A DNA stretch of 42,527 nt from NCBI GenBank assembly GCA_027066455.1, contig JAMONT010000035.1, positions 1 through 42,527 of the forward strand, given 5' to 3'. Shown here one piece after another: positions 1,358 through 37,463 of this stretch. This DNA comes from Candidatus Altimarinota bacterium (GTDB lineage Bacteria > Patescibacteriota > Gracilibacteria > BD1-5 > UBA6164). Under the pieces are notes generated by a model. The model was given only the letters and a program-made list of their open reading frames with translations, was not told the origin of the DNA and did not search any database. A program made the position numbers and the translations under genes. Position 1 is the stretch's first letter; each line of letters opens with the position of its first letter.

Positions 1358-1405
1358 CCCTCTCTCTTGAATTCTCTCTCCCTTACAGGGAGAAAGAGGC
1401 TGCAA
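1358..1405 (+). repeat. Dispersed palindromic repeat, family A copy 1 (intergenic)
   Basis: Starts CCCTCTCTCTTGAATT, has a central CTCTCCCTTACAGGGAGA hairpin and ends GAGGCTGCA. It lies between uppS and the polyprenyl synthase. A partial duplicate (CCCTCTCT) precedes it at 1341. Confidence 0.85.
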
Positions 1406-5460: not shown

Positions 5461-6819
5461 TTATAATTTTTTGCTTACAAATTTCTCCATTAAACTAATT
5501 AATTCAAATTCTCACTTAATAGCCTTATACATATCATTTATTTTTGGTGTTCCTGAAGCTAAAATAACTTTTATTTTTAATAATTCAGAAATTTTTAAAG
5601 CAACTTCAACTCAAGAATATCTAGGATTTTTATCTGAATAATAACTATTATCATGCTCTTCATCAACAATAATTGTTCAAAGATTTTTATAAGGATAAAA
5701 AAGTGCACTTCTTGTTCACACAATTATTTTACTTTTTTGTGTATAAATATCAAGCCGGATTTTAGTTTTTTTTGCTTCAGAAATTGTAGAATTAATCAAA
5801 ACTATATTTTCAGGAAAAATTTTTTCTATTCTTTCAAATATTTGAGAATTAAGAATTATTTCAGGAACTAAAACTAAAGTTTGTTTATTTTCTTTTAGAT
5901 TTTTTTCAATAATTTTCATATAAATTTCAGTTTTTCAACTTCAAGTTATTCAATGAAAAAGAATTTTATCATTTTTAGAATTAATAATTTTTTCATAAGT
6001 TTCTTGTTGTTTTTGAGAAAGATGAATCCCCCTATCCCCCTTCGGGTACTTTCCCCCCACGGGAGAAAGGATTTTTTGAATTACTAATTTTAAGTCTTTT
6101 TCTAATTCTTGATTTTTTATTCTTATTATTCTTACTTTATATTGTTTTATAAATTCATCTCTTATTTTATCATATTCTTTTGTTTCCTCATGAATTTTTC
6201 AATCAAGTTCTATAACTAATTTTAATTCATCTGAATAAAAATCTGCTATATATCTTCAAAAAGGGTGTTGTCTTCTAAATTTTATTCAATTTAATTGATT
6301 TCTTCTTAAAATATTCCACATAAAATCTTCATATTTTGTAGGTTTTTTCCTAAAATCTCTTGCTAAATTAATTATATATTTTGGTGTTGATCTCAAAAAT
6401 GATGAATATTCCAAATTGTCCCAACTTTTGTCCCCTTTCTCCCTTGGGGGGAAAGGGTTAGGGATAGGGGGAGTTATTTTATCTTTCCTAATTTTTTCTT
6501 TTAGATTTTTTGGAAAAAATAAATTTAAACAATGATGAATAAGGGAAAAATATTTTTTTGCAATAAAATTAATTAATTTTATTTGATATGGAAAAAGTAA
6601 AGGAATTTCAAATTTTATTTCTATAATTGATTTTATTTTTTTTTCATCAAAATCTATTTTATCTAAAATTTCTAAAATAACAGCATCTTTTATTTGTTTT
6701 CAATAAGGAACAAGAATAATTTGACCAATTTTTATTTTTTCCTCCAAAAAATCAGGGACAAAATAAGTTATCCCTTCATCTGAAAAACTACTAGAAAATA
6801 AAACTGTTTTTATGTACAA
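5461..6819 (-). CDS. priA: Truncated PriA-like primosomal helicase with in-frame DUF559 endonuclease insertion
   Basis: One open frame of 452 codons. Residues 1-115 resemble the PriA N-terminal DNA-binding region (YFVPDFLEEKIKIGQIILVP). Residues about 116-264 are a foreign cassette holding a DUF559/Vsr-like nuclease domain (RRQHPFGRYIADF, then LVIELDGKIHEE). Residues 265-452 are the first helicase domain: LSQKQQETYEK, Walker A GITGSGKT at 290-297, DEEH at 387-390, and motif III-like SGTP. It stops just after motif III, so helicase motifs IV-VI and the zinc region of a normal PriA (about 700 residues) are absent. The start is TTG (6817-6819), because an in-frame TAA lies three codons upstream. 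It may be a decaying gene or a repurposed protein; replication restart activity is doubtful. Confidence 0.75.
6028..6070 (-). repeat. Terminal repeat of DUF559 cassette (3' side of priA frame)
   Basis: GC-rich palindromic repeat, inverted relative to 6432-6474. It carries an extra CCTTCGGGTA segment compared with its partner. Translated in the priA frame it reads SPVGGKYPKGDRGI. Confidence 0.8.
6432..6474 (+). repeat. Terminal repeat of DUF559 cassette (5' side of priA frame)
   Basis: Inverted partner of 6028-6070. Translated in the priA frame it reads TPPIPNPFPPREKG, the Pro-rich signature typical of these repeats. Confidence 0.8.
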
Positions 6820-14807: not shown

Positions 14808-14855
14808 CCCTCTCTCCTGAATCCTCTCTCCCTTTTAGGGAGAAAGGGGCTGCAA
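14808..14855 (+). repeat. Dispersed palindromic repeat, family A (intergenic)
   Basis: Starts CCCTCTCTCCTGAATCC, has a central CTCTCCCTTTTAGGGAGA hairpin and ends AAAGGGGCTGCA. It lies between the membrane protein gene and a strong hairpin. Confidence 0.85.
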
Positions 14856-16452: not shown

Positions 16453-16498
16453 CCCCACTTGAATTCTCCCCTTTTGGTCAAAAGGGAAGAGGCTACAA
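16453..16498 (+). repeat. Dispersed palindromic repeat, variant copy (intergenic)
   Basis: CCCCACTTGAATTCTCCCC, then a TTTTGGTCAAAA hairpin and GGGAAGAGGCTACAA. The ends match family A but the hairpin is different. Confidence 0.75.
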
Positions 16499-23634: not shown

Positions 23635-23682
23635 CCCTCTCTCCTGAATCTTCTCTCCCTTACAGGGAAGAAAGGGGCTACA
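23635..23682 (+). repeat. Dispersed palindromic repeat, family A (ftsA-ftsZ spacer)
   Basis: CCCTCTCTCCTGAATCTT, then the CTCTCCCTTACAGGGAAG hairpin and AAAGGGGCTACA. It lies inside the ftsA-ftsZ unit, so it is transcribed with both genes. Confidence 0.85.
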
Positions 23683-24968: not shown

Positions 24969-25680
24969 ATTCTATTCAAATTTTTTTAAATAATTCATCT
25001 TTTTCAAATTTTGTTAAAGTTTTATATTCTCAAACTTCCAAATTTCAAAGTAAAATATTTTCTATTCTTACTCTTTTTAATTTTTTTACTCTATGTCATA
25101 TTTTTTCAACCATTCTTCTTATTTGTCTATTTTTTCATTCTGTTAAAGTTATAAGAAATTTTTTATCATTTAATCTTTTTATTTTAGATCTTTTAGTTTT
25201 TCATCAAAGCATAAATATTCATTCTTCCATTTTTTTTAAATCAAATTCTTCTATAAAATCATAAGTTTCAACCATATATTCTTTTTCGTGATTATATCTT
25301 GGGTGAATTAAATAGTTTCAAAGTCTTCAATCATTTGTTAATAAAATTAATCAAGTTGTCTCTTTATCAAGCCTTCAAATAGGAAAAATTCTTTGTTCAA
25401 CATTTAGCAAATCTACAATATTTTGTTCTTCAGCTTGAGCACAAGTTGTAACAATTCATCTTGGTTTATTCATTTTATAATAAACCATATTTTTTTGCTC
25501 TTTTACAAGTTTGTCTTCCAAAGTAATTTTATCAACTCAAACAACTATAGATTGTCCAATTTTGGCTGTTACACCATTAATTTTTACAAGTCAATCAGCT
25601 ATATAAATTTCAGCTTTTCTTCTTGAACAAATTCATGCTTGACTCATATATTTTTGTAATCTAACTTTTTCTTGGTTCAT
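24967..25680 (-). CDS. rluB: rRNA pseudouridine synthase (RluB/RsuA family)
   Basis: A 237-residue enzyme that isomerises uridine in 16S or 23S rRNA. It has an N-terminal S4 RNA-binding domain (VRLQKYMSQAGICSRRKAE), then YYKMNKPRGIVTT and the catalytic motif GRLDKETTGLILLTNDG with the nucleophilic Asp. The C-terminus includes LTEGKNRQIRRMVEKIGH, the family's RNA-contact motif. RluB versus RsuA or RluE cannot be separated from the sequence alone. It converges on ftsZ. Confidence 0.92.
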
Positions 25681-25743
25681 TTTTTTGCAATTATTAATAT
25701 TAAAAGTATTATATATAAAATAATTTTATTATCAATAAAAAAT

Positions 25744-26547
25744 ATGTGAAAAGAGATATTATTTAAAAAAAAGATTTTAATAGTTTCTGCTTTATCTTCT
25801 GAACTTAAAATAATTAAAGAAAAAGTAAAAAGTTTGAAAATAAAAAAATTAGAAATAAAATTTTTTGAATCTTGAATGTGAAATTATAAAACAATTCTTA
25901 ATTTAACAGAATTTTTAACAAATCAGGATTTTGATTTTATTGTTAATATTTGAGTTTGTTGATATAAAAAGGAAATAGAAAAATGTATTCAAGTTGGAAG
26001 AATAAAAAATTTGGCAAATAATAAAGAATTAATTGTTCCAATATTTTTTGAATTTTCTAAAATAAAATCTATTGCAAGTAGTGAAAAAATAATTTATGAT
26101 AAAAAAGAAATTTTTGAAGAAGATTTTGTTGATATGGAAAGTTATTGATTTGAACTTGTGGCAGAAAAATTTGAGCTACCAAGAATTATTTTGAAAATTC
26201 CTGTTGATATGATTTGAGAAGAAACAAAAAACTTTGATTTTTTAAAAGCTAAAAATTTTTTAAAAGAAAATATTGATTATGAAAAATTATTTGAAAAAAT
26301 TTTTTTATATTTACCCTCACCCCAACCCTCTCCCTTGTGGGGAGAGGGAGTAAAACAAAAACTTAATTTAACTGAAAGCCAAAAAATTATTTTTGAACAA
26401 TTATATAATAAATATTCAGTTTTAGTTTGAGATAATTTCGAAAAATATTTAGAAAACTTTTTTAAAAATTTTCTAAATAAAAAATTAGAAAAAAATGATA
26501 TTAAAAAATTTTTAAAAGATTTGGAAGAATTTTTAGATGATAAATAA
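25744..26547 (+). CDS. Nucleoside phosphorylase/MTA-SAH nucleosidase-like protein with in-frame repeat
   Basis: A 267-residue protein. Residues 1-165 resemble 5'-methylthioadenosine/S-adenosylhomocysteine nucleosidases: ILIVSALSSELKIIK, FESGMGNYKT, FIVNIGVCGY and DMESYGFELV, where DMES carries the ribose-binding Glu. The extension after about residue 190 is unrelated to the family. It opens with a palindromic repeat read in frame as LPSPQPSPLWGEGVKQ, followed by a Lys/Asn/Phe-rich helical tail. Catalysis is plausible but not certain, since the usual catalytic Asp region is atypical. Confidence 0.72.
26314..26350 (+). repeat. Dispersed palindromic repeat, family B, in frame in the nucleosidase-like gene
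   Basis: CCCTCACCCCAACCCTCTCC-CTTGTGGGGAGAGGGAG. The CCCTCTCC/GGAGAGGG stem is perfect. In-frame translation is PSPQPSPLWGEG (about residues 191-203), the classic signature of GC-rich bacterial dispersed repeats. Confidence 0.85.
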
Positions 26548-32227: not shown

Positions 32228-32276
32228 CCCTCTCTCTTGAATTTTCTCTCCCTTGCTGGGAGAAAGAGGCTACAAA
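32228..32276 (+). repeat. Dispersed palindromic repeat, family A (after dnaK)
   Basis: CCCTCTCTCTTGAATTTT, then the CTCTCCCTTGCTGGGAGA hairpin and AAAGAGGCTACAAA. It starts 9 bp after the dnaK stop and could also act as a transcript 3' end. Confidence 0.85.
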
Positions 32277-35470: not shown

Positions 35471-37414
35471 ATGACAAAAAAACACAATTTTGAAGCAGAA
35501 ACTGGTAGAATATTAGAACTTTTGACACATTCTATTTATTCTAATAAAGAAATTTTTTTAAGAGAAGTTGTTTCTAATAGTTCTGATGCTATTGATAAAG
35601 CTAGAATCAAATCTTTAACTGATACAAATTTTTTAAAAGCTTGAGAAAAATTTGAAATAAAAATAAATGTAAATGAAAAAAATAATTCTATTATTATAGA
35701 AGATAATGGGATTTGAATGGATAAAGAAAGTTTACAAAAAAATCTTTGAACTATTGCAAAATCTGGAACAAAAGAATTCGTAGAAAAATTAAAAAAAGCA
35801 AAAGAAGGCTCTGAACATAATCTTATTTGACAATTTTGAGTTGGATTTTATTCAGCTTTTATGGTAGCTGATAAAGTAGAAGTTGATAGTAAAACTAATG
35901 AAAGTGAAGCAAATAAATGGATTTCTGACTGAAAAACTGGTTATGAACTTGTTTCAGGAGAAAAAAAAGAAAGATGAACAAGAGTAGAAATTTTTTTAAA
36001 TGAAGCAAATAAAGAACTTTTAAGTGAATGGAAAATAAAAGAATTAGTAAAAAAATATTCTAATTATGCTCCAACTCCAATTATGCTAGAAGTTGAAGAA
36101 AAAGAAGAAAAGGATTGAAAAGAAGTAATTAAAGGAAAAAAATGGGAACAAATAAATGAATCTAAAGCTATTTGGAAAAAAAATAAATCTGAAATAAAAC
36201 CAGAAGAATTAGAAGAATTTTATAAATCTATAAGTATGGATTTTAATAAATATTTGACTTATTCACACATAAATATTGAATGAATGGTAAGTTATAAATC
36301 TTTGCTTTTTGTTCCAATGCAAAAAAATATGTTCAATGATTTGAGTGATCCAAACAAAGAATATTGACCAAAACTTTATATTCAAAATGTTTTGATTTTG
36401 GAAAATGCAAAAGAATTACTTCCTGTTTGGTTGAGATTTGTTTCTTGAGTTGTTGAAACTTCTGATTTACCTTTGAATATTTCAAGAGAAATGTTGCAAA
36501 ATAATTCTTCACTTGAAAAAATAAAAAAAGGTTTGGTTAAAAAAGTTTTAGCTGAACTAAAAAAATCTATGAAAAATGATGAAAAAAACTATGATATTTT
36601 CTTAGAAAATTATGCAAAACTTTTGAAAGAATGAGTTTATTATGAAACTTGAGAACAAAAAGAAGAAATTGCTTCAATTTTGAAATTTAAAAATTTAGAA
36701 TGAAAAAATATTAGTTTAGATGAATATTTAGAAAATTCAATTACCCTCTCTCCTGAATCCTCTCTCCCTGATGGGGAGAAAGGGGCTACAGAAGAAAAAA
36801 TAATTTATTATGTTGTTTGAAAATCTGAATCAGAAGTTTTAGCAAGTCCATATTTGTCTCAATTTAGAGAAAATAATGTTGATGTTTTACTTTTAACTGA
36901 CCCAATTGATTCATTTTTAGTTCAAAATTTTAATGAATACAAAAAAGCAAAATTAAAATCTATAACTTCAAGTGATATAAAATTAAAACAAGATTCTAAA
37001 GAAGAAAAAGAAAAAAAAGAAGAAGTAAAAAAAGATTTTAAAGATTTTTTAGAACTTACAAAAAATACTATTTCAGCTGATAAAATAGAAAAAGTTGAAT
37101 TAAATGAAAATCTTTGAGAAGCTATTTGAGCTTTGAAAACTCCAGAATGATGAGTAAATCCTGAAATGGAAAAAATGATGAAAACTATGGGGCAACCAGT
37201 TCCTGAACAAAAAAGAATTTTAGAATTAAATCCAAATACTGGACTTGTAAAATCTATGAAAGCTGAATTTGAAAAAGATTTGAAATCTGAAAAATTATCT
37301 GATATGATAAAATATGCTTATAATCAAGCCATTTTACTGGAATGAGGAGAATTAGAAAATATAGCAGATTTTGTAGCTCTAACTAATAAATTTGCAGGAA
37401 AATATTTAAAATAA
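35471..37414 (+). CDS. htpG: Chaperone HtpG (Hsp90)
   Basis: A 647-residue bacterial Hsp90. The GHKL ATPase motifs are present: [38 protein letters not shown], and [20 protein letters not shown]. The middle domain shows [11 protein letters not shown] and [15 protein letters not shown] dispersed repeat is inserted in frame at 36744-36790 (residues about 425-440, read [15 protein letters not shown]) directly before IIYYVVGKSES, in the middle/C-terminal boundary where other HtpG proteins have a short hairpin. Length otherwise fits the family (about 620-630). Confidence 0.96.
36744..36790 (+). repeat. Dispersed palindromic repeat, family A, in frame inside htpG
   Basis: CCCTCTCTCCTGAATCCT, then CTCTCCCTGATGGGGAGA and AAGGGGCTACA, the complete family A consensus. 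It adds about 16 codons without a frameshift. Confidence 0.9.
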
Positions 37415-37415
37415 T

Positions 37416-37463
37416 CCCTCTCTCTTGAATTCTCTCTCCCTTTTTAGGGAGAAAGAGGTTACA
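37416..37463 (+). repeat. Dispersed palindromic repeat, family A (htpG-sbcC spacer)
   Basis: CCCTCTCTCTTGAATTCT, then CTCTCCCTTTTTAGGGAGA and AAGAGGTTACA. It starts 2 bp after the htpG stop. Confidence 0.85.

Follow-up and report, generated by a model that had tools for sequence, protein, structure and literature searches.

A DUF559 nuclease gene between inverted triplex-type hairpins, in frame within a bacterial priA, as a probable REPtron-like element

The priA gene studied here contains, in frame, a nuclease cassette that is probably one copy of a compact REPtron-like selfish element, in which a DUF559 nuclease gene lies between inverted intrastrand-triplex hairpins. The window, the whole stretch of 42,527 nt that was analysed, is one contig (C35) of a Candidatus Altimarinota genome of 1.49 Mb with 97.7% completeness, and its genes are open under no reading other than genetic code 25 (TGA = Gly). 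Computational comparison showed that DUF559 genes are paired with repeats of this kind, that the repeats obey a triplex rule, and that the cassettes recur, change host genes and are embedded in frame, with biases of strand and frame.

A Pfam scan of the 452-aa priA ORF identified the PriA 3'BD (E 1e-13), DUF559 (E 1e-29, residues 150-252) and DEAD/ResIII (E 1e-19) domains. The features of the locus were:

5461..6819, minus strand: priA ORF with cassette, 452 aa, code 25, TTG start; 3'BD, cassette, helicase lobe 1
6028..6472, minus strand: nuclease cassette, made of a TM arm, DUF559 and an inverted TM arm, translated in frame
6432..6472, minus strand: 5' arm, type c triplex motif, tail first on the coding strand (CTCCCCCTATCCC-TAA-CCCTTTCCCCCC-AA-GGGAGAAAGGGG), mirror triad match 11/11
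6064..6372, minus strand: predicted DUF559/Vsr-like PD-(D/E)XK nuclease domain, from its profile match and kept residues
6028..6070, plus strand: 3' arm, type c, inverted, with the nested hairpin CCCCTTCGGGTA in place of the linker, mirror triad match 9/9

The original prediction, a DUF559 cassette with inverted GC-rich ends in frame in priA, therefore described a real unit (6028-6472 in the code 25 ORF). Its arms are inverted copies of each other, scoring 20 against a maximum of 18 among 261 control window pairs; the inversion of the ends was confirmed and their supposed simplicity was not, since each arm is composed of tail, linker and hairpin. The arms are translated as KITPPIPNPFPPREKGD...LSPVGGKYPKGDRGIHL with no stops across the whole cassette, and the translation of such repeats as PSPLPxGxG, which had been noted for other bacteria, was also found to be genuine. 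The domain matched the DUF559 profile (PF04480) with 97-103 bits, the curated cut-off being 20.6. It keeps E57, D59, G60, H63, Y69, D70 and R73 (A1 numbering), which are invariant in its clade, and all 22 columns that are invariant in the A1 alignment hold for it (22/22), so that with its conserved acidic and His residues kept it is predicted to be a nuclease.

The PriA linker between FFPKNL and GSGKT is 197 aa long here versus 62-67 aa in most relatives, a net gain of ~134 codons. About 14 of the usual linker residues are absent at the cassette site, and the priA cassette, although in frame as proposed, is thus not a simple clean insertion. Comparison with priA of sister genomes bore out the expected absence of the insertion from relatives. 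Within the searched order, PriA ORFs of ~315-330 aa without DUF559 are the rule and the cassette is absent from the priA of 40-odd relatives, indicating that a short PriA is characteristic of the family and that only the source genome has the cassette. Helicase lobe 2 is apparently absent from PriA across the whole family, which is unusual for a replication-restart helicase. The PriA of genome G061 has a repeat-only, proline-rich insert at nearly the same point as the window cassette, implying a second event in the same linker. This insert and one in DnaX of G061 (both at L024), together with one in DnaX of G058 (L035), make up the in-frame repeat-only inserts seen, with the readings KPHPTPLLKGEG, KPSPPTPLPKREG and TPPSPLQEGG. 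No target-site duplication was recognised at the cassette ends of the priA or RecG sites, and no precise empty site for a TM-bounded unit was found among the loci compared.

Every repeat subfamily has a common plan, namely an outer pyrimidine tail, a short linker, a pyrimidine stem strand, a loop and a purine stem strand. The tail mirrors the pyrimidine strand of the stem, carrying C where that strand has C in 631/677 positions and A or T where it has T in 407/432 positions (A 195, T 212). The mirror match was perfect in 93 of 128 nuclease-flanking arms versus 27 in the direct orientation, a control of identical composition, and in these 128 arms it was better than the direct match in 86, equal in 37 and worse in five. 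Read on the G-rich strand, this rule gives exactly the triads (G.G-C, A.A-T and T.A-T) by which a strand folds back into an antiparallel purine-motif triplex. That the tail may hold either A or T agrees with the antiparallel purine motif and disagrees with the pyrimidine one. The signal for a parallel pyrimidine-motif (C+.G-C) triplex was only weak, and this model was rejected because at A-T pairs the tails are as likely to hold A as T. Most linkers measure 3, 5 or 12-14 nt, the long ones containing nested hairpins (CCCCTTCGGGTA, TGCCTTTCAGGCA).

Judged by their letters, the repeats belong to the BoxC/PIT/TM class of intrastrand-triplex motifs, in which a hairpin is joined by a third tract through purine-motif triads. 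BoxC/PIT, for which Hoyne 2000 is the source as cited in PMC4666352, correspond to the TM of Holder et al. 2015, who found that more than 260 genomes carry such motifs (PMC4666352). The E. coli TM forms a triplex in solution according to NMR and CD, and for E. coli cells in vivo Holder et al. reported that a stable triplex was not seen (PMC4666352). The three-tract purine-motif design is common to those motifs and ours, and the sequence class is near-identical. However, the motifs here bracket a nuclease gene and sit in frame in genes, and the 2015 survey found no mobility gene for TM repeats (PMC4666352).

Besides the cassette arms, the window contains the following repeats, all on the plus strand:

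1358..1404, plus strand: type e triplex repeat, intergenic
14808..14854, plus strand: type e triplex repeat, intergenic
16454..16497, plus strand: type e triplex repeat, intergenic
23635..23681, plus strand: type e triplex repeat
26314..26348, plus strand: type a triplex repeat, in frame within ORF 25672-26547 (..LPSPQPSPLWGEGVK..)
32228..32274, plus strand: type e triplex repeat, intergenic
36744..36790, plus strand: type e triplex repeat, in frame within ORF 35471-37414
37416..37463, plus strand: type e triplex repeat, intergenic

A census of 511 kb, about one third of the source genome, yielded 38 copies of type e, 10 of type c and 13 of type a (full-length pattern); all or nearly all members of these families disappeared when the sequence was shuffled. 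The recG nuclease belongs with type a and the priA nuclease with type c. The idea that the priA nuclease may mobilise the repeats found all over the window was not upheld, since these are mostly of type e, cognate to another DUF559 clade (the copy on contig C85, L004), and priA carries type c. With cassette arms counted in both, 13/13 type a and 10/10 type c copies lie in genes, as do 13/38 of type e. Twelve of the 13 type a copies share a single frame and strand, with a mean of 5.3 of the six frames open (p about 1e-7), and the in-gene type e copies keep one frame and strand in 10/13. The strand bias does not come from coding alone, as intergenic type e copies between co-directional genes are oriented with transcription 19:1. 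Elsewhere in the same genome (contig C34; L005, 2060-2240), a pseudouridine-synthase-like gene beside a DUF559 cassette carries two in-frame repeats, one of type c and one of type a. Types a and e in this genome tend to terminate in GCTACA with an A-rich flank after it, possibly a conserved 3' terminus or a target preference. The type e consensus CYTGAATYC...GRGGCTRCA shows three-way covariation there, in which tail and stem pyrimidines change jointly (C/C with G, T/T with A); a single exception was seen, at L127:2496.

The source genome has five DUF559 copies, of which those in priA and recG (L001) are in frame and three are free-standing. GC-rich hairpins flank all five (5/5) on both sides, the motif subfamily varying by copy. 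Across the order, DUF559 was present in 45/77 genomes. Among the 94 loci with enough flanking sequence, 65 were bracketed by inverted arms with a score higher than any of 261 control window pairs drawn from the same loci, and 71 reached the 99% control level. In species-representative genomes of other phyla (Cyanobacteria, Proteobacteria, Chloroflexi, Bacteroidota, Nitrospirota, Armatimonadota and others), 47 of the 79 testable DUF559 loci scored at least 19 and 53 at least 17, against a maximum of 14 in 123 controls. The strict type a pattern occurred in 42 of 287 genomes across the phylum, its backward-read control giving about three sites in total. Strong DUF559 matches (E <= 1e-15) were found in 38/42 genomes with the pattern versus 16/245 without it (odds ratio 136, p 5e-30, which is descriptive only since the genomes are related). 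The exact type a pattern was absent in 16/54 DUF559 genomes and strong DUF559 was absent in 4/42 repeat genomes, possibly through other repeat types and decay. The association that the original prediction had put forward thus holds within the genome, in the order, in other phyla and at the level of genome co-occurrence; neither of the findings named as speaking against it, an insertion fixed at the same place in distant relatives or a lack of DUF559-repeat association elsewhere, was observed. PADLOC matches to DUF559 were weak and partial. A literature search, with most subscription papers outside its scope, returned no paper joining DUF559 with these repeats.

Other bacteria gave further views of such loci. 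In Sinorhizobium (L286, L283) and Pseudanabaena (L285), DUF559 adjoins complete inverted TM-spacer-TM pairs of ~90-130 bp, and the Sinorhizobium unit may resemble the RIME1 repeat. The 50 kb of S. meliloti pSymB that were examined contained no repeat and copies per replicon are few, so no empty site was obtained. In E. coli, the consensus arm matched 5376/5426 genomes at a median of 17 places. The DUF559 gene of this species is ycjD, most of whose query region is contained in 3361 genomes, and TM-like motifs lie on its downstream side only. In the sapF-ycjD-fabI region (L277-L280), ycjD is apparently missing from many E. coli strains; the three strains compared without it had a larger replacement, an MFS/outer-membrane efflux gene pair after sapF, and no empty site. 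At the yjdP-phnP TM, the deletions were ragged at the one locus compared, with no clean insertion.

A rather unlikely alternative is that the TM hairpins are spread by another enzyme (a RAYT/IS200 HUH transposase or an IS), with DUF559 as a passenger or domesticated bystander in MITE-like elements. RAYT and REP are a known precedent for such spread (PMC3733652), and genome G068 offers a case of transport as cargo. There, near-identical elements of ~571 bp have been amplified recently to about ten copies, some ended by contig edges (L288-L292, L295, L296), each with a 23-bp TIR (GGCATAATCTAAATTTTGGTGGA) that encloses a TM-DUF559-TM cassette; 8-bp target duplications accompany them (gagaattc, gaatatct, tcccgatt, catattag, aaaataat). 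This nesting indicates that the cassette can also travel as cargo. The TIR was found elsewhere in G068 and in G069 and G066. However, it is absent from the source genome, where the priA and RecG cassettes end at the TMs. Furthermore, the contigs of the source genome had no match to Y1 transposases (PF01797), and Y1 (HUH, RAYT/IS200) genes were present in 24/42 type a genomes vs 112/245 others (OR 1.6, p 0.18, again descriptive for related genomes), so that the repeats are tracked by DUF559 and not by Y1.

In-frame insertion is not peculiar to priA. Some 35 nuclease cassettes across the order are embedded in frame in many different conserved genes, whose names were taken from sequence motifs and not from a profile search: RecG (15), MnmA (4), MiaB (4), RsmF-like (2), MiaA (2), PriA, TsaD, RecQ, a leucyl-tRNA-synthetase-like gene and others. 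Fourteen of the 15 RecG cassettes lie in one loop, before QVAIMAPTEIL, and most genomes have an intact RecG. Homing endonucleases of the Vsr type are known, and repeated strikes on the same loop (RecG 14, MnmA 4, MiaB 4) would be expected if the nuclease cut conserved empty sites in the RecG, MnmA and MiaB loops and copied itself by repair, the repeats being accessory. We regard such homing as quite improbable. Endpoints within a host loop vary by several codons, and one loop is common to different nuclease clades and repeat types, which argues for a tolerated loop struck repeatedly and not for a single cut site; in addition, nuclease-free single repeats are common, and no intein or intron sequence was recognised, the Pfam scan of the 452-aa ORF giving PriA and DUF559 domains and no splicing domain.

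A tree of 93 DUF559 domains, with few columns and many open forks, clustered by location, with 10 changes between in-gene and intergenic copies versus 28.4 when shuffled (0/500 as low). A clade of 22 members has 21 in genes and one of 29 members has 27 outside genes. RecG-hosted copies are scattered on the tree (11 changes versus 13.2 shuffled), and the priA copy has as its sister one hosted by RecG in another genus (SH-aLRT 92). Thus, the class of target tracks the nuclease clade and the exact host gene changes. It is highly improbable that PriA and RecG took on DUF559 for its usefulness, as fork-processing helicase-nuclease fusions: helicase genes are frequent hosts and the conserved residues are kept, but placement is patchy, tRNA-modification enzymes and synthetases are also hosts, the repeats are always included and the nuclease is not inherited with the host gene, and a selected fusion protein was rejected. 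A reading of the repeats as common terminators or regulatory hairpins that lie near DUF559 by chance has next to no probability and was rejected, since the co-directional intergenic copies that would suit it are outweighed by inverted bracketing far above controls, the three-tract rule, the in-gene copies and the genome-level co-occurrence.

The REPtron-like reading places the cassette in a kind already known, the repeat-spreading partner systems. With REP/RAYT (REPtrons, REPINs) it shares small palindromic inverted repeats around a presumed mobilising gene and dispersed non-autonomous copies. Some REPs are intragenic in repair genes, and in-frame intragenic REPs are known (PMC3733652). As such REPs are known and the literature searched held no paper joining DUF559 with these repeats, we class the element with these systems as a new version. 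It is not a member of the REP/RAYT family: its enzyme is a PD-(D/E)XK DUF559 nuclease instead of an HUH tyrosine transposase, its ends are triplex motifs, and the GTAG tag of REPs is absent, with CCTCACC, CCCTATC or CTGAATC tracts occupying its position. Rickettsia palindromic elements (RPE) are likewise stop-free palindromic repeats in frame in protein genes; they are not known to carry a nuclease gene (PMC3733652) or a triplex tract. Inteins and intron homing endonucleases also place a nuclease in frame in conserved genes, but no splicing domain was found by the Pfam scan of the 452-aa ORF, which rejects the intein reading; sites and loops are multiple here, and the insert, to judge by the sequence, stays in the protein. 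The DUF559 domain is shared with YcjD of E. coli, VsrA of Caulobacter and PDB 3hrl (match E 7e-25). A role in mismatch repair has been proposed for VsrA (PMC12907096), implying that DUF559 is not always a mobility enzyme.

The element may spread as follows. Where a fork or transcription bubble leaves an end single-stranded, its G-rich strand would form a hairpin onto which the third tract folds back as a purine-motif triplex. The cognate nuclease, as the putative mobilising enzyme, would recognise the motif, probably as a folded single strand, free or nick the unit and cut target DNA, and repair would then paste or copy the unit in one strand orientation. As the unit encodes a stop-free linker rich in proline and glycine in its usual frame, copies in protein loops would survive; frame tolerance would thus follow from the stop-free motif and the loop sites. 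Single hairpins in the genome and in genes would be non-autonomous offspring of the element, as REPs are to the RAYT gene, and in in-gene hosts the nuclease would be produced as a domain within a loop of an essential protein.

Whether these elements form a minimal class that spreads with no more than a single PD-(D/E)XK Vsr-like nuclease and triplex ends, that generated the BoxC/PIT/TM repeats across bacteria and in which some clades specialised for one-strand, one-frame gene insertion with the nuclease as a loop of an essential protein, appears to us an evenly balanced question. Few bacterial repeats are as widespread as those of the BoxC/PIT/triplex kind. The pairing supplies a candidate enzyme for them. 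It makes their origin testable by simple assays, for which E. coli ycjD and the solved Neisseria-type 3hrl protein are ready tools. Essential genes of repair and translation harbour nuclease genes in frame and remain unbroken, and the ends of the element suggest a biological use for purine-motif DNA triplexes.
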